A DNA stretch of 64,000 bases from Clostridium sp. Lineage in GTDB: Bacteria > Bacillota > Clostridia > Clostridiales > Clostridiaceae. Below the pieces are notes generated by a model. That model saw only the letters and a program-made list of their open reading frames with translations, was not told the DNA's origin and did not search any database. Positions 26,720 to 38,453 of the stretch are shown here, piece by piece. The stretch covers positions 21,581 through 85,580 of the forward strand of contig NZ_JAJFUC010000042.1 in NCBI RefSeq assembly GCF_021372645.1, written 5' to 3'. Made by a program: the position numbers and the translations under genes. Position 1 is the stretch's first letter. Each line of letters opens with the position of its first letter.

Positions 26720-28225
26720 TTAATAAATTATACTATTAATTTCTTTAGGCAATTCATTTATAATATCCCTTGCATTTACTATGTAAGCTTGTTTCCTAAA
26801 TTTGTCAGCTATATTTCCATGAATATATGCACCTAGAAGTGCTGCTTGTACTAAATTAACACCTTGTGAAAGAAATGCATTTATTATTCCTGTTAATGCA
26901 TCTCCCATACCTCCTGATGCCATTTTACTATTTCCAGTTGGATTTATATAAATATCTTTCCCATTTGAAATTACAGTATTATACCCCTTTAATAAAACAA
27001 CTATTCCGTATTTCTTTGCAACCGCTCTTGTTATATTAGTTCTATCACATTCCACATCTTCAACAGTTATTCCTAAAAATCGTGCCATTTCACCTGGATG
27101 TGGAGTAATAATTGCTCTGCCTTTTAAATTATCTAGCAAAGACTTGTCTTTCCCGATTAAAGTTATTCCATCTGCATCAATTACTATTGGACATTTGCTA
27201 TTGTTTATAACTTGTTTCAATAATTTTTCTTGCCTGTCACCCGTTCCAATTCCAGGTCCAAAAGCAATAGAACTTGCATTTTTCATCAGCTCTATCACAT
27301 TATTATTATCCCAAGTTAATGTCATAGCTTCTATCAATCTGCTTGATAGGGCTATTTGAACCTCTTCGCTACATATCAATGTAGTTAATCCAGCACCTGA
27401 CCTAACTGTACATTCTGTAGTGATGAAAGCTGCTCCTGTAAATCCAATTCTCCCTGCTATAACTAATGCTCTACCATAACTTCCTTTGTGACCATAAATC
27501 TCTCTTTTACAAAGTAATTGTTTATATTCCTGCTTTTCTAAAATATAAAAATTTCCAGAGTTTATTTTTTTAATACATTCTGGTACCCCTATTTTTAACA
27601 TTTTCATATTTCCAACACAATTAATTGCTTTATAATTTAAAAATCCTTGTTTAATAACCTCAAATGTATAAGTAATATCAGCATGTACTGCAATTCCCCT
27701 CTCAATTCCCAAATCACAATCCAAACCTGATGGAATATCAATTGATACTATGAACTTTCCATAGATATTTACATATTCTATAACTTTCTTAAACATCCCT
27801 GTTAAATCTTTATTAAGTCCAACACCAAAAATCCCATCTATTACTACGTCATAATTTTTAAGGTCATTAATTATATTCCCATTTATATTATTTTCTGATT
27901 TTATAAAGAAAATTTCTCTTTTATTAATTAAGTTTTTTAATATATTGAAATTAATCTTAAAATCATCTGTATAATGTTCATCTTCATTTACTATATAAAC
28001 CTTTACTTTTTTCCCCTCTAGTATTAAATGCCTACATAATGCTAGGGCGTCCCCTCCATTGTTACCTTTTCCACATATTATTAAAAATGATTCGCCTTTA
28101 TCCACCAATTCTCTGAATATACCTATTGCAGCATTCTCCATAAGTATACTTCCTGGAATTCCGATATTATCAATAGTCTGTTTATCCATTTCTTTGCACT
28201 GATTAGCTGAAAAAATTTCAAACAT
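26720..28225 (-). CDS. nnr: Bifunctional NAD(P)HX epimerase/dehydratase
   Basis: 501-residue nicotinamide-repair enzyme. The N-terminal YjeF epimerase domain (about 1-210) has FLIICGKGNNGGDALALCRH; the C-terminal ADP/ATP-dependent dehydratase domain (about 225-495) has GHKGSYGRALVIAG, AIITPHPGEMARFLG and NSKMASGGMGDALTGII with the catalytic aspartate. It repairs hydrated NADH/NADPH in the cytoplasm. Its ATG overlaps the acpS stop by 1 base (TAATG), an arrangement of acpS and nnr common in Firmicutes. Confidence 0.95.
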   Translation of the reverse strand: MFEIFSANQCKEMDKQTIDNIGIPGSILMENAAIGIFRELVDKGESFLIICGKGNNGGDALALCRHLILEGKKVKVYIVNEDEHYTDDFKINFNILKNLINKREIFFIKSENNINGNIINDLKNYDVVIDGIFGVGLNKDLTGMFKKVIEYVNIYGKFIVSIDIPSGLDCDLGIERGIAVHADITYTFEVIKQGFLNYKAINCVGNMKMLKIGVPECIKKINSGNFYILEKQEYKQLLCKREIYGHKGSYGRALVIAGRIGFTGAAFITTECTVRSGAGLTTLICSEEVQIALSSRLIEAMTLTWDNNNVIELMKNASSIAFGPGIGTGDRQEKLLKQVINNSKCPIVIDADGITLIGKDKSLLDNLKGRAIITPHPGEMARFLGITVEDVECDRTNITRAVAKKYGIVVLLKGYNTVISNGKDIYINPTGNSKMASGGMGDALTGIINAFLSQGVNLVQAALLGAYIHGNIADKFRKQAYIVNARDIINELPKEINSIIY

Positions 28226-28596
28226 TATATCGCCTCCATCACTGCATAAGCTATTGCACTTTCTTTACTATGTGAAATACTGACATGTATATTAAATTCC
28301 TTTATATCTAATAACTTATAAATCTTATGACTCAAATTCACAATTGGCTTTCCTAACTCATCTCGAAGCACTTCAATGTCTTGCAATCCAAAACCTCTAA
28401 ATCCCGTTCCTAAGGCTTTACTAATTGCTTCTTTAGCCGCAAAATTTCCAGCTATTACATTACCCTTTAACCCTTTTAATTTAAAATATTCAATCTCATT
28501 ACTAGTAAATGATTTTTCAATAAAACTACTTGTTCTCATTATTACCTTTTCTATTCTATTAATTTCTATTATATCAGTACCAATTCCAATAATCAT
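28225..28596 (-). CDS. acpS: Holo-[acyl-carrier-protein] synthase
   Basis: 123 residues: MIIGIGTDIIEINRIEKVI at the start (catalytic aspartate), NFAAKEAISKALGTGF in the middle, and the C-terminal HVSISHSKESAIAYAV. It transfers 4'-phosphopantetheine from CoA to carrier-protein serines. Substrates would include fatty-acid ACP and probably DltC at 34164, whose LLDSLG serine needs this modification. It is coupled to nnr downstream. Confidence 0.96.
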   Translation of the reverse strand: MIIGIGTDIIEINRIEKVIMRTSSFIEKSFTSNEIEYFKLKGLKGNVIAGNFAAKEAISKALGTGFRGFGLQDIEVLRDELGKPIVNLSHKIYKLLDIKEFNIHVSISHSKESAIAYAVMEAI

Positions 28597-31200: not shown

Positions 31201-31260
31201 AAATATATTTTTAAAGTGGTTATCTTGAAATTTCAAAGATAACCACTTTAAAAATATATT
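31201..31260. terminator. Long bidirectional terminator hairpin after dltB2
   Basis: Almost perfect 25-bp arms with core AAAGTGGTTATCTT/AAGATAACCACTTT around an 8-nt loop, flanked by A/T runs on both sides. It separates the second dlt module from the YihY gene. Confidence 0.75.
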
Positions 31261-31289: not shown

Positions 31290-31335
31290 CATATTCAAAA
31301 AAATATTAAATCAGTTAAAGTTTCCTCCTATTTTG
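31290..31335. repeat. Family A element, partial copy (A5)
   Basis: AGACATATTCAAAAAAATAT with TAAATCAGT, the left half of the family A consensus, at the 3' end of dltB2. Confidence 0.45.
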
Positions 31336-32473
31336 AATATAAATATCCCGAAAATAATAATAAGCCAAAACATGCTATATGAAATGTTACTACTATTTGA
31401 ATATACTGAAACCATTTTTCTTTTTTATGTTTTTTATAAAATTTTGAATTATGTTGATATATATCTGTACCTACTAATGCTAAACCTTGATAAAGTCCAT
31501 ATATAATATAATACCATTTTAAATCATGCCATACTCCCATAATGAACATTGTTAATAATTGTCCTATATGTGAAGCCTTAATCCTATTTTTAAATCTTTT
31601 ATTTCTCATACTATTTAATACAAATCTTGAATATATATAATCTCCAAACCATTTTGATAATGATATATGCCATCTAGTCCAAAATTCTTTCATGTCTTTA
31701 CTTAAAAATGGTTTATTAAAATTCTCTGGCATTCTTATACCTAATATATAACTTGTACCTACTGCAAAAGCTGTGTATCCTGCAAAATCAAAAAACAGAT
31801 ATAAGCTATATGCATACATATAATTTAATGAATTTATAAATGTTACCTCAGTAGGAATTTTAGTCATCCACAATGCATTAATTAAGTCAGCTATTACGAA
31901 TTTGTATATTATTCCTCTAATTATACGTTTTATACCAAAATATAAATAATCCTTAATATATTCTTCTCTATTTATACTTTTTTCTAAGTCATTTTCAAAT
32001 CTTCTTGATCTATCTATCGGCCCAGAAATTAATGTCGGAAAAAATAAAAAGAAATATAATGTTTTTAATATACTAACTTCTTTAATAGTTCCATCATATA
32101 TTTCAATAACCATCTGTATAGCTTTAAAATTAAGATATGAAAGCCCTATAAATCCTATACTTCTTACAGTTGTTATAGCACTTACTTTAAAAATAATTAC
32201 TGGTAACATAGAACAAAATAAAACAAAATAATATAAATATTTATTATCTGTCTTTTTTCTCAAGATAAAATATACTTTAATTAATGTAATTTCTGATAAT
32301 AGAAACAATGGAAATACTTTTCCTATTCCCATAATTGCCATTATCATTAAAATTGATAAAAAAACACCATAATACTTAATCTGTTTTTCTAATAATCCTA
32401 AAATAATAGCTGGTATTAAAGCAATCATTAATACATACAAATAAAAATAATCACCGTATTGAACTAATGTCAT
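31328..32473 (-). CDS. Second DltB-like MBOAT acyltransferase (DltB2)
   Basis: 381-residue membrane-bound O-acyltransferase very similar to DltB at 34409 (406 residues). The difference in length is one in-frame gap: after AIMGI about 25 residues of an early loop and helix are missing. The catalytic-site histidines remain: FWTRWHISLSKWFGDY, and MGVWHDL where DltB has MGFWHGF (glycine replaced by aspartate after the histidine). The ATG overlaps the stop of a tiny dltA remnant, exactly as dltB overlaps dltA. It is probably functional, passing an acyl group across the membrane, but the altered WHG motif and gap leave room for a different specificity or loss of function. Confidence 0.85.
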   Translation of the reverse strand: MTLVQYGDYFYLYVLMIALIPAIILGLLEKQIKYYGVFLSILMIMAIMGIGKVFPLFLLSEITLIKVYFILRKKTDNKYLYYFVLFCSMLPVIIFKVSAITTVRSIGFIGLSYLNFKAIQMVIEIYDGTIKEVSILKTLYFFLFFPTLISGPIDRSRRFENDLEKSINREEYIKDYLYFGIKRIIRGIIYKFVIADLINALWMTKIPTEVTFINSLNYMYAYSLYLFFDFAGYTAFAVGTSYILGIRMPENFNKPFLSKDMKEFWTRWHISLSKWFGDYIYSRFVLNSMRNKRFKNRIKASHIGQLLTMFIMGVWHDLKWYYIIYGLYQGLALVGTDIYQHNSKFYKKHKKEKWFQYIQIVVTFHIACFGLLLFSGYLYSK

Positions 32474-32525
32474 TTTGATTCCTCCATAAGTTTGTTTCTG
32501 GTAATATCAGTAATGCTGATGTGAA
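32474..32525 (-). pseudogene. Vestigial 3' end of a second dltA
   Basis: On the minus strand, just before dltB2, the codons read ITDITRNKLMEESK-stop. The intact dltA ends KIDRKKLMEDLR-stop. DNA of the two matches closely over AGAAA-AAACTTATGGAGGA, and both stops overlap the next ATG as ATGA. The only thing left of a second dltA is roughly its last dozen codons, which now supply the ribosome site GGAGGA for dltB2. Confidence 0.75.
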
Positions 32526-32565
32526 TTCTTAATTAAAATATTTGATAGAAGTTATATTTTTTCTA

Positions 32566-32706
32566 TTAAAATTGACTATACACAAATGGCAAATCAGATG
32601 ATGAATAAAAGAAATATACTACTAAAACTGCCACCAAAAATGCTGTTAACATTACTGTTCTATTAAACTCTTTATTATTTGTTAAAATGTTTATAAATTT
32701 CTTCAC
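32566..32706 (-). CDS. dltX: DltX-like microprotein 2
   Basis: A 46-residue single-span protein translated by hand from the GTG at 32706 (AAGGGTGG 10 nt upstream). It starts VKKFINILTNN, has one membrane helix (about 18-34) and ends LPFVYSQF-stop. DltX is the small membrane protein found with dlt operons; its C-terminal aromatic motif F-x-Y-x-x-F, with the tyrosine proposed as an acyl relay, is matched here as FVYSQF. The gene overlaps the dltD2 3' end by 32 bp in another frame, as dltX does with dltD. An upstream in-frame stop directly before the GTG fixes the start. Confidence 0.85.
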   Translation of the reverse strand: MKKFINILTNNKEFNRTVMLTAFLVAVLVVYFFYSSSDLPFVYSQF

Positions 32707-33868
32707 TTACTTTTAACCACCCTTCATTTCCTAAATGTTTTGGATCTGCTAGAAAACCTTCTTTGTTCTCATATTCTTGTAAATTAAGGACTTCAACTTT
32801 ATTATCTTCTGCTATTTTTTTTACCTTGTCATAATACTCATCTCTTTTATCTTTAGGAAGTTCTACATAATTATAATACCATCCATTGACTGGAAGCAAA
32901 ATAACATAGGGTTCTATATTAAGATCCTTGCAAACACTTAAGAAAAATTTATAATCATCTATCTCTTTTGACTCAATAGGATTTTCACCACTTGATATTC
33001 CTTTAGTTTTAGTCAATTCCGCTAAATTTTTTTTATAATATTTATCATCTAAATGGAATTCATTAGTATATGTGTTTTTATCATTTTCTTCTTTGACCTT
33101 CGCATATTCATCTGCCCAATTAATTTCTTTCAATTCTTGCTTATTACTTTTTAGGGGCAAATCCTTCAGCTCTTTATAAAGTAATGCTTTATCTTGAATA
33201 TCTAATAAATACTCTTTAATTTTATAATACGGTTCAAACATTAGCATTATAGCTTTTTTTAACATTGTTGGTTTATAATATAATCTAGCATAAAATGCTT
33301 CTGCTGGATACTTTTTAGCCTTATTTAACATTGTGTATATGCGTTCACAATAATACTGTTTATTTACTTCACTTATTTTAGGATTATTTAAAAATTTATA
33401 AAACTGCATATCTGAAAAGTTAACAGCAAAATTATATGGTAATATAGCATCCTTTTCTTCAAACCATTGCATTGAAAGTAAAAGAGTTACCTTTTGATTT
33501 TCTTGTATGTTTCCTGAACCCAGATAAGTGGCTTGTTGTAAGTCTTGAACAAATGCTCTTCCAAAACAGCTTGTTCTATATTCAGCCCCTTTAAATGGAA
33601 ACATATTTATTGAATTCTGTGGAACTTGCACTCCCATTTCAGATGATCCTAGTAAAAACAGAGTTCCTTCATTGGACAACAATGTCTTATCTAGTGCACT
33701 TTTATCTTTAACTACATCTCCATAGTTGTTACCAATTAAAGAAACATCTCTTTCTTGCATTAGACTAGCTAACTTATTATCTAATGTTGTATTTATAATA
33801 AATGTGACTATAATTGCAATCACAATTGATATTATTATTGGTATTAAAAAACTCATTATTTTTTTCAT
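32675..33868 (-). CDS. Second DltD-like protein (DltD2)
   Basis: 397 residues: N-terminal membrane anchor (about 5-27), then the extracellular SGNH-like DltD domain. The catalytic serine is in LLGSSEMGVQVPQNS, and the C-terminal LADPKHLGNEGWLKVS holds the Asp/His pair. It is a paralogue of the protein at 37266, similar along its whole length but clearly diverged. It starts the second module dltD2-dltX2-dltB2, about 295 bp after dltC. DltD is thought to complete D-alanine transfer to teichoic acid outside the membrane; the paralogue may act on another polymer. Confidence 0.9.
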   Translation of the reverse strand: MKKIMSFLIPIIISIVIAIIVTFIINTTLDNKLASLMQERDVSLIGNNYGDVVKDKSALDKTLLSNEGTLFLLGSSEMGVQVPQNSINMFPFKGAEYRTSCFGRAFVQDLQQATYLGSGNIQENQKVTLLLSMQWFEEKDAILPYNFAVNFSDMQFYKFLNNPKISEVNKQYYCERIYTMLNKAKKYPAEAFYARLYYKPTMLKKAIMLMFEPYYKIKEYLLDIQDKALLYKELKDLPLKSNKQELKEINWADEYAKVKEENDKNTYTNEFHLDDKYYKKNLAELTKTKGISSGENPIESKEIDDYKFFLSVCKDLNIEPYVILLPVNGWYYNYVELPKDKRDEYYDKVKKIAEDNKVEVLNLQEYENKEGFLADPKHLGNEGWLKVSEEIYKHFNK

Positions 33869-34100: not shown

Positions 34101-34131
34101 AAAAAATGGAATGTTTAGACATCCCATTTTA
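34101..34131 (-). terminator. Terminator of the dltDXABC operon
   Basis: Stem AAATGGGATG/CATTCCATTT (one G-T pair) with TTTTTT following on the minus strand, about 35 bp after the dltC stop. The second dlt module therefore probably has its own promoter or depends on read-through. Confidence 0.8.
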
Positions 34132-34163: not shown

Positions 34164-34397
34164 TTATGCAATTTTACTTTGTAAAAATGCTATTAAATTG
34201 TTAACTGTAGCCATATCTTTCTTTTCTAAATCTGTTGGTTGTAACTTTAATCCAAAAACTTCTTCAATTTTTAGTATCACTTCTATAATTCCTAAAGAAT
34301 CAAGTAGTCCTGCTTCAAATAAGTCTATGTCTTTTTCTTCAGCGATATCGTCACTTCCTGTAACTTCTATCAACATATCCAATACTTTTTCTTCCAT
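34164..34397 (-). CDS. dltC: D-alanyl carrier protein DltC
   Basis: 77-residue acyl-carrier-like protein. The phosphopantetheine attachment serine is in FEAGLLDSLGIIEVILKIEE (about residue 35). It carries D-alanine activated by DltA to DltB at the membrane. It starts 11 bp after dltB, behind GGAGGAG. It is the only dltC in the window, so the second module must share it or use another donor. AcpS at 28225 can convert it to the holo form. Confidence 0.95.
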   Translation of the reverse strand: MEEKVLDMLIEVTGSDDIAEEKDIDLFEAGLLDSLGIIEVILKIEEVFGLKLQPTDLEKKDMATVNNLIAFLQSKIA

Positions 34398-34408
34398 TTT
34401 AACTCCTC

Positions 34409-35629
34409 CTATTTAGTAAATAAATATCCTGAAAATATTAATAATCCAAAACATGCTATATGAAATGTTATTATTATTTGCACATATTGAAACCATTTTT
34501 CTTTTTTATGAGCTTTATAGAACTTTGATTTTCTTTGATACATATCAGTGAATACTAATGCTGCTCCTTGATATAAACCATATATAATATAAAACACTTC
34601 AAATCCATGCCAAAATCCCATAATACCCATTGTTATCATTTGCCCCACATGAGAAGCAATTATTCTATTTTTAAATCTTTTTTTTCTCATGCTATTTAAA
34701 ACAAATCTTGAATATATGTAATCTCCAAACCATTTTGATAATGATATGTGCCATCTATTCCAAAATTCTTTCATATCCTTACTTAAGAAAGGTTTATTAA
34801 AGTTTTCTGGTGCTCTAATTCCTAAAATATAGCTTGTTCCTACTGCAAAGGCACTATATCCTGCAAAATCAAAGAATAGATACAAACTATAAGCATACAT
34901 GTAGTTTAATGAATTAATAAATGTAACTTGTGTTGGAATTTTGTTCATCCACAATGTACTTATAATTACTGAAATTACAAATTTATATAAAAAGCCTCTA
35001 AATATATGTTCACATCCTGAAATTAAATAATCATTTACGTACTCTTTTCTACTTATCTTTTTTTCTATATCTTCATTGAATCTTCTTGATCTGTCTACTG
35101 GCCCAGAACTTAATGTTGGAAAAAACAAAAAAAAGTACAATGTGTTTAAAATGCTTAGTTCTGTTATAGTTTTATCATATATTTCAATAATCATTTGTAT
35201 GGCTTTGAAATTAAGATATGAAAGACCTATAAATCCTATTGTTCCTAGTTTAGTTAAAGGTGTTATTTTTAAAATTATTATTGGTAACATTGAGCTGAAT
35301 AAGACAGAATAATATAAGTACTTGTTATCAGTCTTTTTTCTTATCTCAAAATATCCTTTTATTAATATAATTTCCCCTATTAAAAATATAAGAAATAACA
35401 CAATTTGTATCTTATCATCTAATATAGCATGGTATATGCCTTTCATAGATAATGAAATATTATTTATATTATCAAATCTAACTCCCATAATAGCAACTAT
35501 CATTACTACTGATAAAAATAATCCATAATACTTAATAGGCTTTTGTAATAATCCCAAAATGATAGCTGGGATTAAAGAAATCATTAATATATATAAATAA
35601 AAATAATCTCCATATTGAGTTAACGTCAT
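34409..35629 (-). CDS. dltB: D-alanyl transfer protein DltB (MBOAT)
   Basis: 406-residue multi-pass MBOAT acyltransferase. Conserved blocks are NFNKPFLSKDMKEFWNRWHI (first active-site histidine) and MGIMGFWHGFEVFYIIYGLY (second histidine). It accepts D-alanine from DltC and passes it toward the outside, probably through DltX and DltD. The ATG overlaps the dltA stop (ATGA). Length matches characterised DltB proteins, in contrast to the shorter paralogue at 31328. Confidence 0.95.
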   Translation of the reverse strand: MTLTQYGDYFYLYILMISLIPAIILGLLQKPIKYYGLFLSVVMIVAIMGVRFDNINNISLSMKGIYHAILDDKIQIVLFLIFLIGEIILIKGYFEIRKKTDNKYLYYSVLFSSMLPIIILKITPLTKLGTIGFIGLSYLNFKAIQMIIEIYDKTITELSILNTLYFFLFFPTLSSGPVDRSRRFNEDIEKKISRKEYVNDYLISGCEHIFRGFLYKFVISVIISTLWMNKIPTQVTFINSLNYMYAYSLYLFFDFAGYSAFAVGTSYILGIRAPENFNKPFLSKDMKEFWNRWHISLSKWFGDYIYSRFVLNSMRKKRFKNRIIASHVGQMITMGIMGFWHGFEVFYIIYGLYQGAALVFTDMYQRKSKFYKAHKKEKWFQYVQIIITFHIACFGLLIFSGYLFTK

Positions 35630-37140
35630 CTCAAGTCCTCCATAAGTTTCTTTCTGTCAATCTTCCCATTAGTATTTAAAGGGAATCTCTTTAAAATCTT
35701 AATATTCCTTGGGATCATATATGCTGGTATAAACTTTTTCAATTCTTCTTTTATTATTATTGAATTTTTTAAATTTGATAAATCATTTTCTTTGTTAAGA
35801 ACTATAAATGCTGTTAAATGAGCAATCTTATTTTCATCATTATATACAGGAAGTACTGCTACATTATTTATATTTTCCACTTTTCTTAAATTATTTTCTA
35901 TATCCTCAATTTCAATTCTGAATCCATTTAACTTTATTTGAAAATCTTTTCTTCCAGAATAATATAATATCCCATTCTCATAATAAGCTAAATCTCCTGT
36001 TTTATAACCTTGTTTATCACCATTAGTTTTAAAGAAAACCTTGTTAGTCATTTCTTCATTATTAAGATATCCTATACTTACATTATCTCCTACTACAACA
36101 AGTTCTCCTTTTTCGCCATCTTTTAATTTATTTCCATCTTCATCTTCTATTCTTAATTCACAATTTGGAATAGGATATCCTATAGGTAGTGGATTTTTAT
36201 CCTCTAACATTTCCTTAGTTATATCAATTACAGAAATTGCTACAGTTGCTTCTGTTGGTCCATAAGCATTTATAATCTTAGCATCTGGAAATCTTTCCAT
36301 AAGAATTTTTGCTGTATTCTTAGTAAGTACTTCTCCTATAAATATAAACTTTGAGATTTTGCTCATAGATTTACTATTAAAATCATCAAACTTATTGCAA
36401 ATGTCAGCTAATGTAGGTGTTGATACCCAGCATTCTATATCTGATTCAATTAATTGAGTAAACATTTCACTTAAATCTTGTAATGTGCTCTTAGCTAAAC
36501 TAAATAAAGTTTTTCCATTGCATAATCCAAGATATAATGGTACTACAGATAAATCAAAAGAATATGCTGGTTGATTTAACATAACTGTTGAACTATCATC
36601 AACATAAGTATCTTTTTCAAACCAAGTTATAAATGAATCAAGATTTCTTTTATTAATTTGAACACCTTTAGGTTTTCCAGTACTACCAGATGTAAATAAG
36701 ATATAACAATTATCTTCATCTGTTACCCAATTCTTCTTTGTTACTGATATGGTATGATTACTATTAAAAATATCTTCTATTGCAATTAAATTCAACTCTA
36801 ATATATTATCTACATTTATGGGATTCTCTGTGCAATTAAATATAACCTTAGGCTTAACCTCTGTTATTATTTGATTTATTCTATCTGTTGGAAAAGATAT
36901 GTCTAGTGGTACATAAGCTCTTCCAGATTTTAATGCGCCCATCATTACAGGTAAGATTTCATTTTCCTTATTCCCATAGATAACTATAGGTTTTCTATCT
37001 TCTTTAAATTCTTCTAAAAGGTACGTTGCAACTTTATTTGAATAGTCTTTCAATTCCTTATATGTAAGTTCATTTCCTAAACATCTAACTGCTACTCTTT
37101 CTGTATTTGCAAATTTATCAATACTTTCTAATATCCTCAT
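35626..37140 (-). CDS. dltA: D-alanine--D-alanyl carrier protein ligase DltA
   Basis: 504-residue adenylation enzyme that activates D-alanine with ATP and loads DltC. The ATP motif YILFTSGSTGKPKG, the INAYGPTEATVA motif, YKTGDLAYYENGILYYSGR and the C-terminal lysine loop NGKIDRKKLM are all present. The start MRILESIDK at 37140 follows AGGGGGCAAAG and gives the standard length; a 17-codon longer frame would run into the dltX stop region. It is the single dltA in the window; only the last few codons of a second copy survive at 32474. Confidence 0.96.
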   Translation of the reverse strand: MRILESIDKFANTERVAVRCLGNELTYKELKDYSNKVATYLLEEFKEDRKPIVIYGNKENEILPVMMGALKSGRAYVPLDISFPTDRINQIITEVKPKVIFNCTENPINVDNILELNLIAIEDIFNSNHTISVTKKNWVTDEDNCYILFTSGSTGKPKGVQINKRNLDSFITWFEKDTYVDDSSTVMLNQPAYSFDLSVVPLYLGLCNGKTLFSLAKSTLQDLSEMFTQLIESDIECWVSTPTLADICNKFDDFNSKSMSKISKFIFIGEVLTKNTAKILMERFPDAKIINAYGPTEATVAISVIDITKEMLEDKNPLPIGYPIPNCELRIEDEDGNKLKDGEKGELVVVGDNVSIGYLNNEEMTNKVFFKTNGDKQGYKTGDLAYYENGILYYSGRKDFQIKLNGFRIEIEDIENNLRKVENINNVAVLPVYNDENKIAHLTAFIVLNKENDLSNLKNSIIIKEELKKFIPAYMIPRNIKILKRFPLNTNGKIDRKKLMEDLR

Positions 37141-37159
37141 AACTTTGCCCCCTATTATT

Positions 37160-37300
37160 TTAAAATTGACTGTATACAAATGGTATATCATTTAATGAAT
37201 AAAAAAAATAAATTACTAATGCTAACACTACCGTTATTGATACTACTATAGTCCTCTTAAAATCCTTATCGTTGATCAAAATGCTTATAAATTCCTTCAC
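37160..37300 (-). CDS. dltX: DltX microprotein
   Basis: 46 residues translated by hand from the GTG at 37300 (AAGGGTGG 10 nt upstream): VKEFISILINDKDF, one membrane helix (about 18-34), and the end IPFVYSQF-stop. The final FVYSQF fits the DltX motif F-x-Y-x-x-F. It overlaps dltD by 35 bp in a different frame and stops 19 bp before dltA. In Bacillus and Staphylococcus dltX precedes dltA in the same way. It is too short to be found by usual gene-length cut-offs. The paralogue at 32566 has the same length and an identical last eight residues apart from one substitution. Confidence 0.88.
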   Translation of the reverse strand: MKEFISILINDKDFKRTIVVSITVVLALVIYFFYSLNDIPFVYSQF

Positions 37301-38453
37301 TTACTTTCAACCACCCTTCTTTGCCTAAATGCATTATATCAATTAAGAAATATTGTTTATAGTCGTTTTCACTTAAATCAAGAACATCAATATCTTGTTC
37401 TTCTGCTAGCATTTTAATTTTATTGTAATACTCGTTCCTTTTTCCCTTATCAAGTCCCAAATAATCATTATACCAACCATTTACTGGAGGCATTATTATG
37501 TATGGCTTTATATTAAGTTCCTTACATACACTTAAAAGAAATTTATAATCATTCATTTCTTTTGAGTTTATTAAATCCTCACCTTTTGAATTGCCTTTGA
37601 TCTTATCTACTACATCTTTTAAATTCTTATTATAACAATCATCTTGAAGCTTAAATTGATTTGTAGATACTAATTCACTATTCTCTTTTTGGATTTTTTC
37701 ATACTCATCTTGCCAATTTACGCTTTTAAGTTCTGTATTACTTTGCTTATTGGGTAATGCCTTCAATTCTTTATAAATTAACGCTTTATCTTTAACATTT
37801 AATAAATACCCACTAATCTTATAATATGGATTCATTACTACCATTGCATATTTTTTTAATGGGCTTTTGCTATAATATAATCTTGCATAAAGAGCTTCTG
37901 CTGAATACTTTTTTGCCTCCACCAAGAAATTGTAAACCCTTTTAGCATAGTATTCCTTATTCTCCTCACTTATTTTAGGATTATTAAGAAAATTATAGAA
38001 TTGTATATCTGAAAAATTAACTGCAAAATTTTTAGCTTGCATTCCTTCTGGATCTTCAAACCATTGACTAGAAACTATAAGTGCTATATTTTGATTTTCT
38101 TTTAAATCACAGCCTCCGAGTACAGTTGCTTGCTGTAAATCTTGAGTATACGCTCGTCCAAAGCAGCTTACATTATAATCAGCTCCTTCAAACGGGAAAA
38201 ATTGTATTGCATTTTGAGGAGTATCCACTCCCATTTCAGAAGATCCCATTAAAAATAAATCTCCTTTGTCGGATATTATTTTTTTAATTATTGCACTTTT
38301 ATCTTTTGTTAAATCTCCATATTTAGCACCAATCTGAGAAACATTCTTTTCTTGAGTTAATTCTATTATTTGCTTATCTAAATAATTATTAATTGATACT
38401 GTAACTATAATTGCAAGTAATATAGGTATTAAAAAACTAATTATTTTTTTCAT
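37266..38453 (-). CDS. dltD: Teichoic acid D-alanylation protein DltD
   Basis: 395 residues: N-terminal membrane anchor (about 5-24) and an extracellular DltD domain with LMGSSEMGVDTPQNA (catalytic serine) and LIDIMHLGKEGWLKVS (Asp...His). It heads the operon dltD-dltX-dltA-dltB-dltC, a different order from the B. subtilis dltXABCD. Start ATG follows AAAGGAC. The family B element B3 and a terminator lie upstream, between it and the dehydrogenase gene. Confidence 0.95.
   Translation of the reverse strand: MKKIISFLIPILLAIIVTVSINNYLDKQIIELTQEKNVSQIGAKYGDLTKDKSAIIKKIISDKGDLFLMGSSEMGVDTPQNAIQFFPFEGADYNVSCFGRAYTQDLQQATVLGGCDLKENQNIALIVSSQWFEDPEGMQAKNFAVNFSDIQFYNFLNNPKISEENKEYYAKRVYNFLVEAKKYSAEALYARLYYSKSPLKKYAMVVMNPYYKISGYLLNVKDKALIYKELKALPNKQSNTELKSVNWQDEYEKIQKENSELVSTNQFKLQDDCYNKNLKDVVDKIKGNSKGEDLINSKEMNDYKFLLSVCKELNIKPYIIMPPVNGWYNDYLGLDKGKRNEYYNKIKMLAEEQDIDVLDLSENDYKQYFLIDIMHLGKEGWLKVSEGIYKHFDQR

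Follow-up and report, generated by a model that had tools for sequence, protein, structure and literature searches.

The window, the 64,000-nucleotide stretch of Clostridium DNA analysed here, contains two sets of dlt genes, and only one of them includes genes for a D-alanine ligase and a carrier. The locus raises the question of what supplies the other set, how it came to lack these genes, and what it does. The first set is a complete dltD1-X1-A1-B1-C1 operon on the minus strand (38453-34164). It consists of dltD1 (37266..38453; TIGR04092, 334 bits), dltX1 (37160..37300; assigned by position and by 59% identity to DltX2), dltA1 (35626..37191; TIGR01734, 573.5 bits), dltB1 (34409..35629; 406 aa; TIGR04091, 494.5 bits) and dltC1 (34164..34397; TIGR01688, 63.5 bits). 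Downstream on the same strand are dltD2, dltX2 and dltB2 (33868-31328). The dltD2 gene (32675..33868) encodes a 397-aa SGNH-type D-alanyl transferase. The dltX2 gene (32566..32706), recognized by its position, its similarity to dltX1 and its motif, has a GTG start and encodes a single-pass microprotein of 46 aa ending in PFVYSQF. The dltB2 gene (31328..32473) encodes a 381-aa MBOAT D-alanyl transfer protein. An earlier note on this DNA had described a complete set followed by a second one lacking ligase and carrier, and the genes and coordinates are as it claimed. Among the reading frames of the window, no dltA or dltC is found between or beside dltD2, dltX2 and dltB2; there is only a remnant of dltA. 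The second module therefore lacks the DltA and DltC that a complete Dlt system has of its own. The gene for holo-ACP synthase, acpS (28225..28596, minus strand; TIGR00516), belongs to the same conserved neighbourhood.

The products of the second module are members of the Dlt families. DltB2 scores 484.1 bits against the curated TIGR04091 cut-off of 375, and it matches the solved Streptococcus thermophilus DltB (E 8.7e-81) over residues 4-378. DltD2 scores 302.4 bits against the TIGR04092 cut-off of 150 and also matches PF04914. It keeps the GSSE (GSSEMG) and D..H (DPKHL) motifs, which we take to be catalytic in DltD. For the DltX proteins there was no match among Pfam and NCBIfam models; they are assigned by their location, their similarity to each other and the motif at their C-terminus. 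DltB1 and DltB2 are 76% identical over 381 aligned residues, DltD1 and DltD2 are 59% identical, as are DltX1 and DltX2.

The assembly (3.12 Mb, 105 contigs) encodes two DltB and two DltD proteins, one DltC (dltC1) and one DltA over the cut-off (dltA1), the second DltA match reaching only 30.8 bits; the assembly is 93.5% complete, so it may lack a further ligase or carrier gene. We consider it likely that dltD2-X2-B2 encodes a complete transfer complex for D-alanine, the second in this genome, which arose from a full operon by loss of dltA and dltC and is fed by DltA1 and DltC1.

D-X-B modules in related genomes

DltB homologs over the cut-off are present in 47 of the 206 genomes of the host's family, in 58 copies, and nine genomes have at least two. 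Neighbouring genes were classed in 57 stretches, which hold the 58 copies and one cut fragment. When dltD-dltX-dltB triplets without dltA, proposed in the earlier note as something to look for, were sought in these stretches, 12 modules lacking both dltA and dltC (D-X-B modules) were found in 10 Clostridium genomes. These are the window's genome (G000), G021 and G033 (two modules each), G023, G029, G031, G032, G048, G056 and G067, in the last of which dltX precedes dltD. In G037 the dltB gene is cut by a contig end. A second scan, with DltB2 against named genomes, returned 58 loci: 49 with dltA in the fetched flank, eight D-X-B modules and one cut locus. The eight are not independent, since they come from six of the 10 genomes already counted.

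Other arrangements were also seen. G099 (another genus; L081) has dltB and dltD as a pair lacking dltA, in which the pattern search detected no dltX, while a complete dltA-B-C-D set is present elsewhere; this pair is possibly an independent case. An extra dltD lies by or near complete dlt operons at L087 (G037), L088 (G032), L066 (G024), L098 (G073) and L101 (G076), and the first dltD of L087 and of L088 lacks the GSSE motif. L140 (G048) and L141 (G031) have a divergent cluster encoding an SGNH-like protein, a small carrier protein and a DltA-like ligase (32-34% identical to DltA1); a 536-aa MBOAT protein is encoded nearby. The cluster seems to be another system for transferring aminoacyl or acyl groups, equipped with a carrier of its own.

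All 10 genomes with D-X-B modules encode a DltA of 544-574 bits, which passes the strict cut-off of 559.85 in four genomes and falls just under it in the other six. Each has exactly one DltC over the cut-off, and G023 has one more below it. The distribution of these genes is most informative in G029, G031, G048 and G056, where the sole DltB over the cut-off is in a D-X-B module. In these four genomes dltA and dltC form a pair elsewhere, next to an ABC transporter, and the 4.5 kb fetched at each of these loci contain no dltB, dltX or dltD. G029 is a single contig, so its split arrangement is not an assembly gap. On the simplest reading, the D-X-B modules of these genomes would be fed by the unlinked dltA-dltC pair. 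This suggests that D-alanine activation and transfer need not be co-encoded and can evolve apart, transfer complexes being kept or moved while the adjoining ligase and carrier genes are lost. Such split-pathway genomes offer a natural test of whether the carrier is shared.

Docking and transfer residues of the second module

In S. thermophilus, DltB meets DltC through M302, V305, I306, M309, K312 and R317, and H336 is in the active site (PMC11035591). DltB1 and DltB2 are identical at all six DltC-contact positions (S, V, L, M, K, R); both differ from the S. thermophilus protein in having Ser for M302 and Leu for I306. By this residue comparison the DltC contact surface of DltB2 is kept, a point that the earlier note had left for checking. 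Its claim that DltB2 retains both active-site histidines is confirmed by alignment, as H289 and H336 are present in DltB1 and DltB2. V305, M309, K312, R317 and H336 are invariant in 13 DltB proteins of D-X-B modules, counting the contig-cut L099 (dltB only), and nearly invariant in 26 of complete operons; L120 and L121 gave no RWH match, and two G024 rows and L081 fall outside both groups. The C-terminus of DltX2, FVYSQF, fits FxYxxF, the DltX acyl-shuttle motif whose tyrosine carries D-alanine (PMC12148441). The motif is present in 39 of 39 DltX frames, a count that is partly by construction because the frames were picked with the motif pattern.

Two differences between the DltB proteins had been listed in the earlier note. 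DltB2 has MGVWHD where DltB1 has MGFWHG, and the substitution, G337D, adjoins the catalytic histidine. The difference is real. However, MGAWHD also appears in three complete operons (G004, G012, G007) whose genomes have a single DltB over the cut-off, so the motif does not mark an orphan module, and it was rejected as a sign of altered function. A D-X-B module with MGxWHD is present in G023 as well. The length difference of about 25 residues is likewise real, but it is not a loop missing from DltB2. DltB frames are 381-397 aa long in 54 of 59 cases, which indicates an extra segment in DltB1; the remaining five are four frames of 404-425 aa (window DltB1, G032, G037, G062) and one contig-cut fragment. 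A deletion in DltB2 was thus discarded, as DltB1 has the unusual length. The extra segment of DltB1 follows residue 50 and is absent in most relatives, and the DltB proteins of G032 and G037 have an insert of similar length there.

The best reading is that the second module draws D-alanyl-DltC from the first operon, as the earlier note had offered for one of two options. The shared contact residues, the DltX motif, the single DltA and DltC and the four split-locus genomes all favour it. AcpS would arm DltC1, which DltA1 would charge with D-alanine in the cytoplasm. D-alanyl-DltC1 would then dock on DltB2 in the same way as on DltB1, and DltB2 would hand the D-alanine to the DltX2 tyrosine, from which it would pass to the DltD2 serine and on to a teichoic-type polymer outside the cell. 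A single activation pair would in this way supply two membrane complexes. The sequences themselves show the gene content, the conserved contact and catalytic residues, purifying selection, the dltA remnant, the recurrence in relatives and the split arrangement; carrier sharing, the chemistry of transfer, the acceptor and separate expression of the second module are what we infer from them.

The other option, that the module has another donor and transfers some other acyl or aminoacyl group, could draw on the lack of an adjacent ligase or carrier and on the position of G337D beside the catalytic histidine. It is very improbable. The DltC-contact surface is unchanged and WHD is found in three complete single-DltB operons; DltX is present, without the fused C-terminal shuttle typical of acyl-CoA systems; and DltA and DltC co-occur with D-X-B modules in all 10 genomes. 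Nothing was found in support of another donor.

Origin and constraint

In the DltB phylogeny, DltB2 is in a clade of 14 sequences (type 2; support 100/98) in which complete operons (G004, G012, G007, G022, G065) are mixed with D-X-B modules. DltB1 falls together with DltB from the complete operons of G021 and G033 (97/84; type 1). From these groupings, both types of module are present side by side in three genomes, those of the window, G021 and G033. The dS between dltB1 and dltB2 (0.83) exceeds that between dltB2 and its counterparts in G004 (0.50) and G012 (0.42), indicating that the dltB1/dltB2 pair is old. The presence or absence of dltA changed at least six times on the DltB tree (58 rows, 13 without dltA including G099; the contig-cut L099, dltB only, omitted), a count that gives no direction.

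A scar supplies the direction. The end of dltA in complete operons reads KIDRKKLMEELK; it includes the dltB ribosome-binding site, and the dltA TGA overlaps with the ATG of dltB. Before dltB2 (32470..32508, minus strand), 35 nt and a TGA in the same frame, DITRNKLMEESK, show the same TGA/ATG overlap and contain the dltB2 ribosome-binding site. Outside that site, 17 of 22 nt are identical to the dltA 3' end. None of 3000 random stretches matched as well, nor did any of 1000 in a repeat; in an unanchored gapped search the match is weaker, with 63 of 1000 random stretches reaching it. The scar is clear in three of the 12 modules (the window, G056 with 21/22 and G029 with 20/22), weaker in three others (G031, G048 and one G033 module) and unconvincing in the remaining six. 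No dltC remnant was detected downstream of dltB2 at E 0.1. Because a dltA remnant survives before dltB2, the second module is a reduced operon and not a separate kind of system. Two type-2 D-X-B modules, L111 (G033) and L113 (G021), are outside the usual neighbourhood, which indicates that the module has moved; their flanks have a phosphoribosyltransferase-like gene and a peptidase-like gene (named by eye).

A reduced operon with a deletion scar, next to a complete operon and with few fixed differences from type 1, might be a redundant leftover heading for loss, with no role of its own. We regard this as quite improbable. The dltD2, dltX2 and dltB2 frames are all open. For dltB2, dN/dS is 0.09-0.15 in comparison with nine type-2 relatives and 0.09-0.20 when all 12 sequences compared are counted; for dltD2 it is 0.22-0.31 against 12 relatives. 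Being well below 1, these values place both genes under constraint, and decay was rejected on this ground. Values for dltX2, with 46 codons, are 0.11-0.63 and too noisy to show constraint. Both kinds of module are kept in three genomes, and the age of the dltB pair also speaks against a leftover. According to the earlier note, a module confined to this strain, with decaying frames and dN/dS near 1, would have told against it; the module type is instead found in 10 genomes, and the dltB2 and dltD2 values are far lower.

Acceptor, expression and known systems

A second transfer complex on a shared D-alanyl-DltC supply could modify a different acceptor, such as a wall polymer or one built with the amino-sugar acids that the neighbouring genes make. 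Coexistence of the two types in three genomes argues against pure redundancy and would fit this possibility. So would the surroundings: genes for a nucleotide-sugar dehydrogenase, an acetyltransferase and an aminotransferase adjoin the locus in the window and, in relatives, seven D-X-B modules and as many full operons. Complete single operons share this neighbourhood, however, so the amino-sugar genes do not mark the second module, and two type-2 modules (L111, L113) are located elsewhere. Fixed differences between type 1 (n=3) and type 2 (n=14) number two in DltB, one in DltD and none in DltX, although the test was strict and its power low. The number of LTA-synthase-like sulfatases does not follow the module either: the window's genome has one, the 10 D-X-B genomes have 1-4, and nine genomes selected as having just one, complete operon have 2-3. 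A second LTA synthase as partner of the module was therefore rejected, the sulfatase matches being putative LTA synthases. A different acceptor is unlikely; nothing found points to another polymer, and it is somewhat more probable that the module adds capacity or is regulated separately. In Clostridium difficile, D-alanine is reported on lipoteichoic acid only (PMC10642750).

The second module is probably its own transcription unit. A terminator-like hairpin lies between dltC1 and dltD2 (34103..34130, minus strand). Downstream of dltB2 (31202..31260) is a possible terminator, an inverted repeat with perfect 25-bp arms around a 9-nt loop. Together these fit separate transcription, although the hairpin is weak on its own (three terminator-like sites in the region against 1.1 expected from shuffles). 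The dltD2 leader appears by eye closer to those of type-2 relatives than to that of dltD1. The best promoter match before dltD2, TTGAAA-17-TATAAT, was discarded: it runs straight into the terminator-like hairpin, and because of this overlap and of promoter-like sites being fewer than in shuffles (53 against 65.7, no excess), it proves nothing.

More generally, the Dlt pathway might consist of one diffusible D-alanyl-carrier supply and several competing transfer complexes, each with its own polymer or condition. This wider view is rather doubtful; if it were true, the window would represent a cell with two transfer complexes on one supply. It is debated whether DltD or DltB sets the modified polymer, and two complexes with one supply could show which does. 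Surface D-alanine affects charge and sensitivity to lysozyme and antimicrobial peptides, so it also matters in practice when each module is active.

In the titles and abstract beginnings returned by searches of the open literature, no description of a dltD-X-B module without dltA, or of a split dlt pathway, was found; the words dltD1/dltD2 or dltB2 occur once each in PMC11813365 and PMC12404037. The closest relative of the second module is the Dlt system itself (dltD-X-A-B-C in clostridia, dltXABCD in bacilli). They share the DltB, DltD and DltX families, the gene order once dltA and dltC are removed, and the contact and shuttle residues. The module differs in having no ligase or carrier of its own, a supply that would come in trans, and dltA reduced to a remnant. 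Lactobacillus plantarum, with DltC1 and DltC2, likewise has a Dlt pathway with a duplicated, commonly working component, but it duplicates the carrier, whereas this Clostridium duplicates the transfer complex (PMC9338922). Acyl-CoA MBOAT/SGNH pairs such as PatA/PatB also combine an MBOAT and an SGNH protein without a linked ligase or carrier; as described in PMC12148441, they use an acyl-CoA donor and lack DltX, the shuttle motif being located at the C-terminal end of the MBOAT protein. The second module has no such fused shuttle; it has a separate DltX2 and a short DltB2 that ends at 381 aa.
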